DNA of 64,000 nucleotides from Candidatus Koribacter versatilis Ellin345 (GTDB taxonomy: Bacteria > Acidobacteriota > Terriglobia > Terriglobales > Acidobacteriaceae): NCBI RefSeq assembly GCF_000014005.1, contig NC_008009.1:4216001-4280000 (forward strand). Direction: 5' to 3'. The notes under the pieces were generated by a model. The model did not search any database. It was given only the letters and a program-made list of their open reading frames with translations, and was not told the DNA's origin. The translations under genes and the position numbers were made by a program. Shown here in pieces: positions 13,851-44,608 of this stretch. Positions within the stretch are counted from its first letter, which is position 1. Each line of letters begins with the position of its first letter.

Positions 13851-14475
13851 TCTTCCCCCACCCAATGAGCATCAGGAATCTAGCGGACGCTGATTCGTCA
13901 ATCAACAACTTTCGCAACCATGTATTGAGGGCGAGAAAGGCGAAAGATGCGACATTCGTCAAAATTCCCACCGTGTCCTTCGTGGTGAATCTTTTAACTT
14001 TCACCGCCAGAACCACGCAGAGGTCTTGTCAATCCCCACCAAACGTGGGATCGGTGCGCCCCATCACCTCGCCCTGCATCGCCCATCACATCTTTCCACG
14101 ACCCAATTCCCTATCCTGTCTTCCTCCGACACAAACTGGACCCCACCGCCTTCCCGGCCAAAGGTCTCGTTTCCCGGAGACAAGTCGTTTGTTTTCAAAT
14201 TTTTGCCTGTAACCCCTTGCGGCTCAAATTTTTGCGAGTTTTCCACAGCCTAAGCTATTGAAAACAAAATTCAAGGGGGAGGGGGGTGGGGTCGGCAAGG
14301 CCGCGCCCTCCGCTACTCAATCGTGGGGTCGAAATGATGTTGTGGCGCCCGTTCGCCTCTCATTACCTTCGGCACGTTGCCGTCGCACCCTATCGGCAGT
14401 ACTGTTTCCCCCCGATCGTTCTACCGACGAATCGGAAGACGCGTAGTCCGCAGGAAAGGCGTTGGTCTCGCGAAT
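13851..14475. other. Intergenic region without a recognisable gene
   Basis: About 625 bases. Around 13965-14020 is sequence reading (on the minus strand) GATTCACCACGAAGGACACG, a style of dispersed repeat seen in several soil phyla. Around 14200-14275 is an AT-richer stretch followed by a G-rich run (GGGGGAGGGGGG). I see no convincing coding frame; the PilZ-like gene follows. Confidence 0.5.
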
Positions 14476-39580: not shown

Positions 39581-41665
39581 TTAGTTGGACGTCGCCGCGG
39601 TTTTTACCGTGACCGTCTCACTCACCGTACCCGAGGCTGTGTACCGGTCGCCACTGTACGACACCGAGAGCGTGTGCGATCCCGCAGACAAACTGGTCTG
39701 CAACGCAGAAGCGCTTCCGCCGGCCAGTGCAACCGTCCCTCCGATCTGCTTACCGTCAACCTTGAAAGTCACCGTGCCGGTCGGAGCCGTGGAAGCATCC
39801 GACGTCACACTGACTTTCATGCCGACTTTTGCATTGGCCAGAAGCAAGCTGGCGCTCGTCGGCGCGGTGAACCGGATCGCCGGGGCCGTGGTCGCCGCGC
39901 CGCTGAGCGTCACGTTGTTGATGCCCAGTAACGTGTTGCTGAGCAGGTTGAAGTACGCCGAGCGTGAACCTGTTCCGGTCGGCTGGAAGATGAAGCCGAC
40001 CTGGCAACTCTGCCCCGCGGCGAGCACGCTGCCCGGTGTCAGCAAGCAGGTCGTGGTGTTGGGATCGACCGCGAAGTCGTTGGGATTCGTCCCCGTGAAC
40101 TTGGCGTTTGTGAGTTGCATCGCAGAGTTGCCGGTATTCGAAACCAGGACCGTCGAAGCAGCGCTCTTCACGCCGTTCTTCGTCGTCGGCAGCACCAGTT
40201 TGCCGAACGTGGTCACTCGACGCACAACTTGCGTTGTGCTGCTGGCCGCGTCCCCCGCAATGATGAACACCTGCCCCTCCGAATCAACGCCTACGCCAGT
40301 CGGGTTGGCCAACTCAGCGGTTGTCGCTCCGGCGGTATCGCCGATATACCCCGCAATGCCATTGCCGGCAATCGTGCGGATGATGCCGCTGGTGTAGTCA
40401 ATGCGGCGCACGCGATTGTTCGCCTTATCGGTGAAGTACAGGTTCCCGGCAGCATCGAAAGCAATCTGCCCGATCTTGTTGCCGATCTCAGCATTGGTGG
40501 CTTGGCCATTATCACCTGCGAAGCCGCACGTGTGTCCACCGGCGACCTTGATGAACGATACGAAATTGTTCTCCGCGTTGTACAACGACTGCTGCGCGAT
40601 TTCGCAGACGCTACCGTTTGCCCAGAGCGAGTAAAGATTGTCGCTGGAATCCACGGCCATCGTCGCCGACGGGCTTTGCTGGTACGGAAATGGATCGTAG
40701 AGGAAGATCAGGTTCGCGGGTATGGGCTGAACCGTGGAAAAAGCCGCGCCTTGATGGCTGTCAACGAAAAACAGGTGATTGTACGGATCGATGGACATTG
40801 CGCCCGGAGTCCCCAGCGCCTCGGAACTGAGAGTGCATGGAGTCGAAGCGGGACAAGCGATGGTGCCCGTCCCGCTGACTTGAACGACCGGGCCGTAGTC
40901 GTAGATCTCGTACATCTTGCCGGTGGACGGCACATCGTAGTAAATCTGCCCGAAGGTATCCTGTGCGACTCCGTACACGCCGGTATAACCGGTGGCGAGA
41001 GCTTTCGACGTTCCAGTCGAATCGATCGAGAGGACCTTCCCATTGCCAGTGTCCGCAATCAGCAGCGTATCGCCGGCCAGTGCAAGATTCTGGGCGCCGT
41101 TCAGCAGGCCGACGCCCGCCGAAACTGTCGCCGGAACCGTCGTGATGATCGACGGTACGAAGCTGATCACCGGCGCGTAGCCGTAACCGCCAATTCCAAA
41201 GCCCATCGGCAGCACGCTTGCACTATGGCTCACCTGCAATTTCCCTGCTCGGTGGCCGGGGCCCTGCGGCACAAACCGCACCATCAGGATGCAATCGGTG
41301 CCTGCGCTATAAGTTCGTCCTTCCCCGCAGGTGCTGTCGCTTTCCACCTTGAAATCGGCGGACGAAGTGATCTTCGTGATGGTTGCAGTTTGCGCGAACT
41401 GCACGGTGAACCGCTGCGGACCGGTGACTTCGCCCAACTTGGCCGCGCCAAACTCGTAAAAGTTTTCGGGAGCTTGGGCAAGAATCGCCTTCTCGCTGGC
41501 GGGCAACTCGGACAACATAGTCGCGGACGTTGCCGGCTTCGTGATTGTGACCGCAGAAGGTTTGGTTTGTGCAAATGCACTCATGGAAGCAAGCCATGCC
41601 GCAAAACCGGCAAATAGCAGGCACTTCCACGGCAGCAGGGAGTTTTGACGCGTCGGGACGAACAT
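39581..41665 (-). CDS. Secreted NHL-repeat protein with Ig-like and choice-of-anchor-type domains
   Basis: 694 residues from ATG 41665 (GGAG upstream), with signal peptide WKCLLFAGFAAWLASMSAFAQ. An N-terminal beta domain with a possible disulphide (STCGEGRTYSAGTDCILMVRF) resembles the choice-of-anchor group. NHL-like propeller units follow (AGDTLLIADTGNGKVLSID, GNLYFTDKANNRVRRIDYTSGIIRTIAGNGIAGYIGD). A second anchor-like domain and an Ig_3-type domain (GTVTFKVDGKQIGG, AGSHTLSVSYSGD) end the protein. It is exported; the function is unknown. Confidence 0.85.
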   Translation of the reverse strand: MFVPTRQNSLLPWKCLLFAGFAAWLASMSAFAQTKPSAVTITKPATSATMLSELPASEKAILAQAPENFYEFGAAKLGEVTGPQRFTVQFAQTATITKITSSADFKVESDSTCGEGRTYSAGTDCILMVRFVPQGPGHRAGKLQVSHSASVLPMGFGIGGYGYAPVISFVPSIITTVPATVSAGVGLLNGAQNLALAGDTLLIADTGNGKVLSIDSTGTSKALATGYTGVYGVAQDTFGQIYYDVPSTGKMYEIYDYGPVVQVSGTGTIACPASTPCTLSSEALGTPGAMSIDPYNHLFFVDSHQGAAFSTVQPIPANLIFLYDPFPYQQSPSATMAVDSSDNLYSLWANGSVCEIAQQSLYNAENNFVSFIKVAGGHTCGFAGDNGQATNAEIGNKIGQIAFDAAGNLYFTDKANNRVRRIDYTSGIIRTIAGNGIAGYIGDTAGATTAELANPTGVGVDSEGQVFIIAGDAASSTTQVVRRVTTFGKLVLPTTKNGVKSAASTVLVSNTGNSAMQLTNAKFTGTNPNDFAVDPNTTTCLLTPGSVLAAGQSCQVGFIFQPTGTGSRSAYFNLLSNTLLGINNVTLSGAATTAPAIRFTAPTSASLLLANAKVGMKVSVTSDASTAPTGTVTFKVDGKQIGGTVALAGGSASALQTSLSAGSHTLSVSYSGDRYTASGTVSETVTVKTAATSN

Positions 41666-42028
41666 CGGAGTCTCCTCAATCGATTCGAATTGTGGGGAAC
41701 ACAAGGGGTCAAACGAATAGGCACAACCGGCGCGAAGTGGGGGGGCACCGGCAGAAAGTGCCTGATTCTCCCTCTGTTCGGGTTTTCTTGTCAATCAACT
41801 AAAGGGCAGAAATTACCTTAGAAGAGCGCTGCCGGCGTTGGTTCTTAGCACTTTACGATCGCTCCCCACTCCTCCGGATCGCGATCGGTCGCGCGGCGGG
41901 AGTATAGCCAGTGGTGGCCGTCGACGTCCAAGGCGCGGAAAAATTCTGGTCTTGCCCGGGACTCTCACAAACAACCGTGACCGCCATCACAGACTCTCCT
42001 TGCGATCCATTGCTAGAGTGCTAAATGA
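41666..42028. other. Intergenic region upstream of the NHL-type gene
   Basis: About 360 bases holding the leader and promoter of the gene at 39581. No coding frame is evident. GAGTGCTAA at 42015-42023 looks like one half of a CIRCE site but has no partner. Confidence 0.4.
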
Positions 42029-42280
42029 GGCTCAGTAGGCCCAGGCGACAAGCCCAGGGCCCACTGAGCCGAAAGTGTCTCTGGCCTCAAATGAGGTCAC
42101 CGCCCGAAGGGGCGGCCGGAAGATCTTTGAAAATCGGGCGCAAGAGGCCCAAACCAAACCGCCGGAGGCGGGGGCAAGCTTGCGCACATAAAATACCGCG
42201 CAACGAGAGTTTGCGGACGACGGTCCGCAGTCGAAGCGGAGGCAGCAAGGCCTCTGTCTCCGCTTCAATCTCTCGTTCGA
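42029..42280. ncRNA. Heavily structured intergenic element, candidate non-coding RNA or composite repeat
   Basis: A chain of stems fills 250 bases without a coding frame. GGCTCAGT (42029-42036) pairs with ACTGAGCC (42063-42070), with GGCCC/GGGCC nested inside. CCGCCC-GAAG-GGGCGG spans 42100-42115, CCGCC-GGA-GGCGG 42159-42171, and the palindrome GCAAGCTTGC 42174-42183. AACGAGAG (42202-42209) pairs with CTCTCGTT (42270-42277) and encloses two further hairpins, TGCGGAC/GTCCGCA and GAAGCGGAG/CTCCGCTTC, forming a three-way junction. Strand and function are unknown. It could be a structured RNA in the 3' region of the histidine kinase mRNA or a mosaic of repeats. Confidence 0.45.
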
Positions 42281-42307
42281 ATCAGTATTGGCTGAATTGC
42301 AGTTCGA

Positions 42308-44608
42308 TCAGGCTTTGACCGGAACGGCGTCCAACACCTCGCGTACGCGCTCGCCGAGCGCCGCGGGGGTAAATGGTTTTTGCAGTAGTGAAATGCCCTC
42401 TTCGAGAATGCCGTGGGTGCCGATTGCGTCGTCAGTGTAACCGGACATGTAGAGCACCTTGATGCCTGGCCGGCTGGCCGAAATTTTGACCGCGATTTCA
42501 GGACCGCTGGCGCCGGGCATCACCACGTCCGTGAGCAGCAAATTGATTTCGCCGCTATGAGTTTCGTTAAATTTCAAGGCTTCGGTGCCGTTCTCGGCCA
42601 CGTACACGGTATAGCCAAAGCGGCGCAGCATGGTGAGCGTCAGGTTGCGCACCTGCTCGTCGTCTTCCACGAGCAACACGATTTCCGAACCCTTCCCCAC
42701 GGCGACGGGATGCAAGCCCGTCTCGACTTCGGTACGCGCCTGGATCCGCGGCAGGAAAATCTTGAAGCTCGAACCCTTCGCGAGCTGGCTCTCCACCACA
42801 ATGCTTCCACCGCTCTGCTTGACGATGCCATAAACCATCGAGAGGCCGAGGCCGGTGCCGCGGGCGCGTTCCTTGGTGGTGAAGAACGGTTCGAAGATGT
42901 GCACCTTGGTAGCGTCGTCCATGCCCACGCCGGTATCGTGCACCGCGAGCATCACGTAATCGCCGGGCGTAAGGTCCACGTGCTCGCGCGCGAACGCTTC
43001 GTCCACCTGGACGTTTCGCGTTTCCAGCACCAGCGATCCGCCCCGGGGCATGGCGTCGCGCGCATTTACGACGAGATTCAGGATGACCTGCTCGATCTGT
43101 CCGGGATCGGCCTTCACCGCGCCGAGTCCTTCGCCCGCACGCGTAGTGAGCTCGATGTGCTCGCCGATGAGGCGCTGCAGCATCTTCTGCAGATCGCGAA
43201 CGAGACCGTTGAGGTTGATGGTGCGCGGCTGCAGCATCTGACGACGGCTGAAGGCCAGCAACTGGCTGGTGAGCGCGGCGGCGCGGGCGCCGGCTTCGTC
43301 AATCTGCTCAACGTCGGTGCGAAGCTCAGGATCGTTCCCGACGCGATCGAGCACCATGCGTGCATAACCGCGAATCACCGTCAGCAGGTTGTTGAAGTCG
43401 TGCGCGATGCCGCCGGAGAGTGTGCCGATCGCTTCCATCTTTTGCGTCTGGCGCAACTGTTCTTCCAGTCGCTGGCGCTCGATAATCTCGGAGCGTAGTT
43501 GCGAGTTGGCCTCGCTCAGTTCGCTGGTGCGGTTGGCGACTTGTTCCTCGAGGTGTTCTTCGTTTTCGCGCAGCAATTGTTCAGCGCGACGACGCTCTGC
43601 GATCTCCGCCTGTAGATCAGCGGCGATGCGCAGTTCGCGCTGCTGCACCACCACCATGCGCAGGCTGGAGCAGACGAACGAAATCGAAACCATCATCACG
43701 GCGAAGCCAAGGCGCTCGCGGACGATGACCATGGAGAGAATGAGCACGAGGAAAGCGGTCATCACCGGGAAGAGTTGGTCCCCTAGCACGCGTCCCGCCT
43801 TGCTCTTCGCGTCAATCCAGTCGGTTTCGTCCTCAGTCCACGTGCCTGCGAGGACGATAGGAGCGATATTGAGAGCGGTCCAGACGAGTTGGAACCACGT
43901 AGCCGACGGCAGCTTGTTGTAGTTGGCGTAAAGATCGGCAAGGCATCCGACAACCAGAAAGAGCGAAAAACGCCAGAAGAAGCGGCGTGTGGACCGTGAG
44001 CGCGTGAGCATGGCGCGCAGGCTGAACAGCATGGTCATCGAGAGGTCGTAGACCAAGGTTCCGCCCCAGGTAGCTTGCAGCCAGGAATGAGGCGTCTGGC
44101 CGACGAAGACATGCATGGGGAGGAACAGAAACATGAAGAAGACCGCGACCCAGAAGATCACGAGCTGGATGAAGTCGAGGACGTGGATGGGATCGAAGCC
44201 GCGGAACTCGAAATCAGGTTCGAGGAAAAGCGTGAAGCTGAGTGGCGCCAGCCAGAAAACGCTGATCTCGTCGGAGAGTTCGGTAAGCGCCCTGGTGTAA
44301 GGCAGCACTTCCGCGCCGATGCCGATCGCGAGCGATAGAGCGAAAAACGAGCAGCAGAGCGACAACGTCATCCACGCGACACGGGTGAGGCCGCGAGAGC
44401 GCCGCGACGCCTGCCAGGCAACGACGATTGCGATCGAAGAGAGCCCGAAGTCGAGGCAGTTCTCGACGATGATTTCCCGGCCCACCAAGTGCAACGCAAT
44501 CAGCGTTATAACTTGTAGTAGGACAATGGTGGCAACTGGAACGCGCCACCAGTATTGCCCGGAAAACCACGAAGCAAAACGACTTCGCGCTGGAACGCGA
44601 TTCAACAT
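42308..44608 (-). CDS. Hybrid sensor histidine kinase with receiver domain
   Basis: 766 residues. About eight to nine membrane helices (residues 25-315) form a sensor region, followed by a coiled coil ([28 protein letters not shown]). The HisKA domain has [11 protein letters not shown] with phosphorylatable His403. The ATPase domain has N-box NARDAM (515), DTGVGMD and GTGLGL. A C-terminal receiver has Asp694 in LLTDVVMPG and the TxK lysine in LLQKPF. This is the HWE-unrelated GGIAHDFNN class common with C-terminal receivers. The signal is unknown, and no separate response regulator is adjacent. Confidence 0.93.

Follow-up and report, generated by a model that had tools for sequence, protein, structure and literature searches.

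A candidate structured RNA in Candidatus Koribacter versatilis with promoter-like boxes, a covarying 5' hairpin and a boxA-like motif, related to leaders of zinc-finger genes

A structured gap between two genes

The window (the whole stretch of 64,000 nt analysed here) contains an intergenic region flanked by a histidine kinase gene and an NHL-type gene, as the initial annotation had stated. Once the upstream boxes are included, the unit under study spans approximately 41965-42294 (+). Its inferred reading strand makes it convergent to the kinase gene and divergent from the NHL gene. The features are as follows.

14052-14102, + strand: second tandem-box promoter-like site of the window (of a different subtype, see below; no boxA regex match)
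39581-41794, – strand: NHL/Ig-type gene, neighbour on the other side of the target
41965-41968, + strand: upstream TCAC half-box, 22 bp ahead of the second TCAC and without a preceding GTGA partner (from sequence)
41977-41992, + strand: GTGA-N6-TCAC box, GTGACCGCCATCACAG (from sequence; CRP/FNR-like by consensus)
42014-42020, + strand: TAGAGTG, a –10-like TAnnnTG element 27 nt past the second TCAC
42029-42070, + strand: P1, nested 5' hairpin, covarying (fold and covariation)
42083-42098, + strand: P2, hairpin (fold)
42100-42115, + strand: P3, hairpin (fold)
42122-42135, + strand: boxA-like motif, GATCTTTGAAAATC (regex and consensus comparison)
42138-42185, + strand: P4, bipartite stem-loop with a GCGCAAG/CTTGCGC stem, an inner GCCC/GGGC and a terminal CCGCC/GGCGG (fold)
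42202-42277, + strand: P5, three-way junction with outer strands AACGAGAG/CTCTCGTT and arms at 42212-42229 and 42233-42266 (fold)
42283-42294, + strand: P6, small hairpin with no T-run after it (from sequence)
42308-44608, – strand: histidine kinase gene, convergent neighbour of the target

The fold of 42010-42300 is more stable than that of any of 200 dinucleotide shuffles (z-score –6.75 for the + strand and –6.81 for the – strand). In a tile scan (250 nt, 20 shuffles each) the z-score of the target, –8.7, was reached by none of 255 tiles, and the next-strongest tile (z-score –4.6) overlaps the target. Folding confirmed the stems where they had been placed before, including the nested hairpin at 42029-42070 and the three-way junction; two points are amended, in that the unit begins earlier, with boxes from 41965, and reads on the + strand.

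Searches for known RNAs, coding sequence and terminators

The earlier statement that no known RNA fits holds: Rfam 15 families gave no match at gathering score in the 64-kb window, the single match inside the target at E ≤ 10 (42062-42097, E = 6.7) is not credible, and no tRNA or tmRNA was found in the window. The target would join Acido-1 (RF01686) and Acido-Lenti-1 (RF01687), described as acidobacterial candidate ncRNAs in the accessible part of PMC2864571, as a further candidate RNA of this phylum; it differs in that neither family matched the target, nor any unit itself in the 18 loci scanned.

The + strand ORF at 42025-42318 was rejected as protein-coding: a 1-nt insertion shifts its frame in the paralogues, and one congener copy lacks the ATG. 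The sequence GAGTGCTAA in the target resembles what we take to be half a CIRCE site; it is not conserved in congener copies, and this reading was also dropped.

A terminator scan of 41900-42500 called none on the + strand and three terminator-like sites on the – strand, against 0.6 expected in shuffles (both strands together). This excess would fit a 3' terminator region of the kinase transcript, read from the – strand. However, the T-tails are interrupted, two of the three sites have only 5 pairs, the larger stems have no T-run after them and the paralogous modules adjoin other genes, which makes such a role hardly credible.

Copies of the 5' module and covariation of P1

We searched the genome (one contig of 5,650,368 bases) with 42010-42300 and found the target itself plus two places that match its first 142 bases at 92%. 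With flanks included, the module shared with the target measures 189 nt (88%) and 146 nt (92%) at these two other places. Between the two paralogues, which lie at 2681 kb and 3949 kb, 394 nt are shared at 86%, and of this the target has the 5' part only. The 3' half of the target is single-copy in the genome (next matches at E of at least 1.3), and no homologue of its three-way junction P5 was found. The congener has two weaker copies, and about 250 nt downstream of each lies a gene for a small Cys/His zinc-finger protein.

The initial annotation had proposed a covariance search with homologous gaps; compensatory changes were found in P1 and in the two paralogues. We aligned P1 over 10 units from two species (the target, its two paralogues, four congeneric zinc-finger leaders, L121, L132 and L146), where 98.5% of 130 cells are paired (0 of 500 shuffles) and 5 of 13 pairs are changed on both sides (16 of 500 shuffles show as many), the rows not being independent as the target and its paralogues are near-identical. 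Doubly changed cells number 15 (0 of 500 shuffles), and the covariation score of 0.376 was reached by no shuffle out of 500, with slid controls at or below 0.113. The count of further pair types, 9, was matched in 308 of 500 shuffles, and an earlier, seven-row version of the alignment had 3 of 13 pairs doubly changed (59 of 500 shuffles). Between the 2681-kb and 3949-kb paralogues, none of 93 predicted pairs is broken and 3 are doubly compensated, for a structure that was predicted from the same two sequences. P4 has an identical layout with different letters in both paralogues, as judged by eye.

Both paralogues have an inferred length of 280 nt up to a T5 run, as given by a scan that left out the 40 nt after P4; the 3949-kb paralogue carries an additional T5 run directly after P4. 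By eye, each paralogue appears to end in a bulged stem closing at a T-run. A strict terminator scan of the transcribed strand of both called none. The P1 of the target is closer to those of its own paralogues than to that of the leader at the orthologous locus of the congener, and hence exchange or copying of the 5' module from locus to locus is probable.

Promoter-like boxes and a boxA-like motif

The CRP/FNR-type consensus is TGTGA-N6-TCACA, and in class II geometry the box is centred near –42 of the transcription start. The second box of the target, with the –10-like element 27 nt on, has class II-type spacing by this rule and points to a start near 42026. By the same consensus, we regard the boxes as putative CRP/FNR-type sites. 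The target resembles CRP/FNR-activated promoters in its GTGA-N6-TCAC box, the second box being centred near –42 of the presumed start; it differs in the tandem 22-bp register and in the half-site first box, and its activator is putative. TCAC-N18-TCAC is present in all 5 copies (target, two paralogues and two congeneric copies) and upstream of all 12 zinc-finger genes found in the genus (7 own, 5 congeneric), in whose promoters TCAC is often the second half of GTGA-N6-TCAC. The 22-bp TCAC register was found at none of 19 zinc-finger hits in other genera, 5 of which have less than 300 nt of upstream sequence. The first TCAC stands 68 nt ahead of the CAGT of P1 in 5 of 7 P1 units, 67 nt in one and 54 nt in the 3949-kb paralogue, where 14 nt are deleted between box and –10.

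The motif GATCTTTGAAAATC departs from the gamma-proteobacterial boxA consensus, GYTCTTTAANA in the available portion of PMC5725501, at positions 2 (A) and 8 (G). A hairpin ahead of boxA is the rrn order, according to the accessible text of PMC10250234. The target, likewise, has a 5' hairpin and then the boxA-like motif, as do the rRNA operon leader (boxB hairpin, boxA, boxC) and the E. coli suhB leader; unlike these, it is followed by no rRNA, and tens of dispersed copies stand behind CRP/FNR-like boxes. An RF00177 search of the genome sequence, aimed at the local rRNA-leader form of boxA, found no 16S.

A dispersed family of units with promoter-like boxes, a hairpin and a boxA-like motif

R2, a sequence-only model trained on 15 rows of the box region, the target among them, turned up dozens of additional places in the genome; like the model R1, it matches the target by construction. 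The places derived from R2 have a common layout of boxes, –10, a short hairpin of TGGGGCATTCCCA type and a boxA-like GNTCTTTGANA, after which AACTCC and AATATTTTGC motifs often follow, and then a GGGGGAGGGGGTAC tract about 220 nt on. Among the R2-derived places, doubtful hits included, TCTTTGA[ACT] occurs within 180 nt at 38 of 59 in the own genome and at 17 of 33 in the congener; in control windows, from which the units had not been removed, the count is 89 of 4316. An automated count found the –10 at 30 of 59 own and 14 of 33 congeneric places, with a scan slice that missed sites one base further on, TAGAGTG of the target among them. A number of the weak R2 hits, as well as hits from other genera, look like plain CRP-type sites, consistent with the CRP/FNR reading of the boxes. 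In 36 generic units the A, T and G of TAnnnTG are invariant, and all 36 contain G-N-TCTTTGA-N-A, the units having been selected for TCTTTGA[ACT] and the outer G and A unselected. Their 4-bp hairpin covaries weakly, one slid control scoring higher, and RNAalifold on the 3' domain of 11 generic units gave no convincing shared fold. The GGGGGAGGGGGTAC tract was seen about 220 nt past the boxes in L112, L123, L128, L129, L133 and other generic units. The site at 14052-14102 (+) of the window is of the same family and belongs to the subtype with an upstream ATCCCCACCAAACGTGGGAT hairpin.

From 150 scored candidates per genome, a model built on the 36 generic units (R3; trained on members, with rough E-values) matched, at E ≤ 0.01, 61 places in the own genome, 7 of them zinc-finger promoters, and 40 in the congener. 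Neither the target nor its two paralogues appear in the R3 list at this threshold. They differ from generic units in the large P1 and in a boxA motif that lies 125-139 nt past the second TCAC versus about 65 nt. On the basis of the boxes, the –10, P1 homology and the boxA motif, we suggest that these three are divergent members of the family.

With genes called by a simple codon score, 62 of the 64 units (61 R3 matches and the trio) have a called gene downstream and none overlapping them. The downstream gene is convergent in 34 of the 62 and on the same strand in 28, including 7 zinc-finger genes, and in none of them does a gene call come within 150 nt of the end of the match. The unit could in principle exert antisense or readthrough control over the convergent histidine kinase: P6 ends 14 nt from the kinase stop, a boxA-like site is present, no + strand terminator was called, and the 34 convergent units speak for such a role. 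However, the convergent partners vary (by eye, among those listed) and the other 28 units face a same-strand gene. Orientation therefore looks incidental, and we consider control of the kinase very unlikely.

The core pattern was found in 2 of 300 family genomes, the own genome and the congener. In a wider genome collection it gave 3 stretches, two from the congener and one from Bacteroidetes (L029), the latter with no P1 partner by eye; there were none in viral contigs. R1 over 398 family genomes matched strongly in the own genome and the congener and weakly in two others (E = 2.6e–5 and 3.2e–4). R3 over 150 relatives matched in 13, of which 11 lie outside the genus with one weak match each. 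Two of these 11 (L191 and L193) look like real units; we took the rest for plain CRP-type sites or chance. The L191 unit (genus g65, G073) has hairpin and boxA and precedes a 314-aa gene that we take to be transposase-like.

Such a distribution raises the question of a dispersed DNA repeat (REP- or MITE-like), in which the hairpins would act as DNA, transposases would spread them and the promoter-like motifs would be incidental. The many dispersed intergenic copies agree with it, as does the presumed transposase-like gene after one unit in another genus. The accessible part of PMC3733652 reports three tyrosine transposase genes in K. versatilis, one with a repeated terminal inverted repeat family, and like those REP/TIR repeats the target is a dispersed palindromic intergenic sequence; its family differs in consisting of whole promoter-leader units. 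Against a DNA repeat, the generic copies share short motifs at fixed spacing rather than whole-length identity, boxes, –10, hairpin and boxA keep a constant order, and no transposase-like gene was seen by eye beside the three close copies. We regard a DNA repeat as quite improbable. The initial annotation's alternative of a composite of repeats is correct for the 5' part, a module present at two other places and, in weaker form, at many more, but not for the 3' half, which is unique. Copies are indeed as numerous as its doubt about a repeat mosaic had envisaged, but they keep motif order and spacing and form no random mosaic.

Relation to zinc-finger genes and synteny at the kinase locus

Small Cys/His zinc-finger proteins with a basic stretch number 7 paralogues in the own genome and 5 in the congener (L034-L040, L041, L048, L054, L059 and L063). 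Two of them were scanned and stayed under the Pfam and NCBIfam cut-offs, with a best PHROGs E-value of 0.11. The boxA regex matches in only 7 of 12 zinc-finger leaders. In L037, L039 and L040 the zinc-finger start codon comes shortly after a GGGGGAGGGGGTAC-type tract. At L142 (congener C268) a zinc-finger-like start follows the G-tract of the unit, and the protein search probably missed at least one zinc-finger gene, as here.

The congener has an orthologue of the kinase (72% identity over 1974 nt), which converges on a zinc-finger gene preceded by a P1-type leader; the target locus holds an ORF-less unit instead. The distance from the end of P1 to the kinase stop is about 240 nt here versus about 850 nt in the congener. 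Synteny covers the kinase side only and not the NHL side. No zinc-finger ORF was found on the + strand between the target and the kinase stop.

A remnant leader is a serious rival to an RNA gene: a former zinc-finger gene would have lost its ORF, leaving the stems as decaying leftovers. The zinc-finger gene at the orthologous locus, the unique 3' half of the target and the missing + strand terminator all fit such a loss. However, the stems are intact and form the strongest fold among the tiles tested, the 5' module is 88-92% identical to two other ORF-less copies in which 93 of 93 predicted pairs are kept, and more than half of the family units (34 of 62) have a convergent rather than a same-strand gene downstream. 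Overall, we consider decay unlikely, though less so than spread as a DNA repeat.

A proposed untranslated RNA unit

Motif order, the family, covariation and one-sided synteny can be read from the sequence itself. We consider it probable that the target is an ORF-less + strand transcription unit from about 42026, a divergent member of a family with tandem boxes, –10, 5' hairpin, boxA-like motif and variable body, which would act as RNA. The half-site first box, the unique 3' half, the lack of a + strand terminator call and the place outside the R3 list count against this unit reading. The earlier suggestion of a structured RNA gains from the compensatory changes, the promoter-like and boxA-like motifs in one orientation and the paralogues of the same layout, and is supported as far as sequence allows.

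From this anatomy we infer transcription, factor binding, antitermination and titration. A CRP/FNR-family activator bound around –42 and –64 would start transcription; the 5' hairpin and boxA would recruit NusB/S10 in the fashion of an rRNA leader, which would shield the untranslated RNA from Rho, and the hairpin chain would yield a stable RNA of about 270 nt. At other loci of the genus, this 5' module is the leader of zinc-finger protein genes. Since an ORF is absent at the target, its product would most likely work as a free leader-type RNA, which might, for example, titrate whatever recognises the zinc-finger leader; titration of a leader-binding protein is our guess. The most economical account is a structured RNA that is driven by a promoter, protected by boxA and retains the leader without the ORF.

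More tentatively, the genus may possess a family of at least 60 CRP/FNR-controlled, boxA-protected untranslated RNA genes that employ the antitermination leader of rRNA in a regulatory RNA regulon, with the structured, ORF-less trio derived from, or developing into, leaders of a zinc-finger protein and acting as its decoys; we hold this to be less likely than not. The accessible parts of PMC5725501 and PMC10250234 describe boxA antitermination at rRNA operons, at phage nut sites and for suhB, and the former, a survey without non-coding RNAs, predicts boxA at 407 gamma-proteobacterial gene starts. About 60 promoter-hairpin-boxA units in one genome would extend the boxA device to dispersed untranslated units. 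If real, the family would offer a test system for Nus factors outside rRNA, and Acidobacteriota would gain a large candidate RNA regulon that is linked with a signal of CRP/FNR type. A literature search, with subscription papers mostly outside its reach, found no description of the family.

Two further observations concern the surroundings of the units. In the L034 and L035 leaders we saw by eye tandem near-copies of a TGTCATCCAGAGGAGGGCG..CGTGGGATCTGCTGTTCT repeat, which also appear as self-similar pieces in the comparison. Acido-Lenti-1 (RF01687) was seen close to units at 3 of the 18 scanned loci, at L132:1855-1900 (–), L143:2116-2161 (+) and L034:2063-2108 (–); in two of these it lies upstream and opposite, in the other one roughly where the zinc-finger gene has its 3' end.
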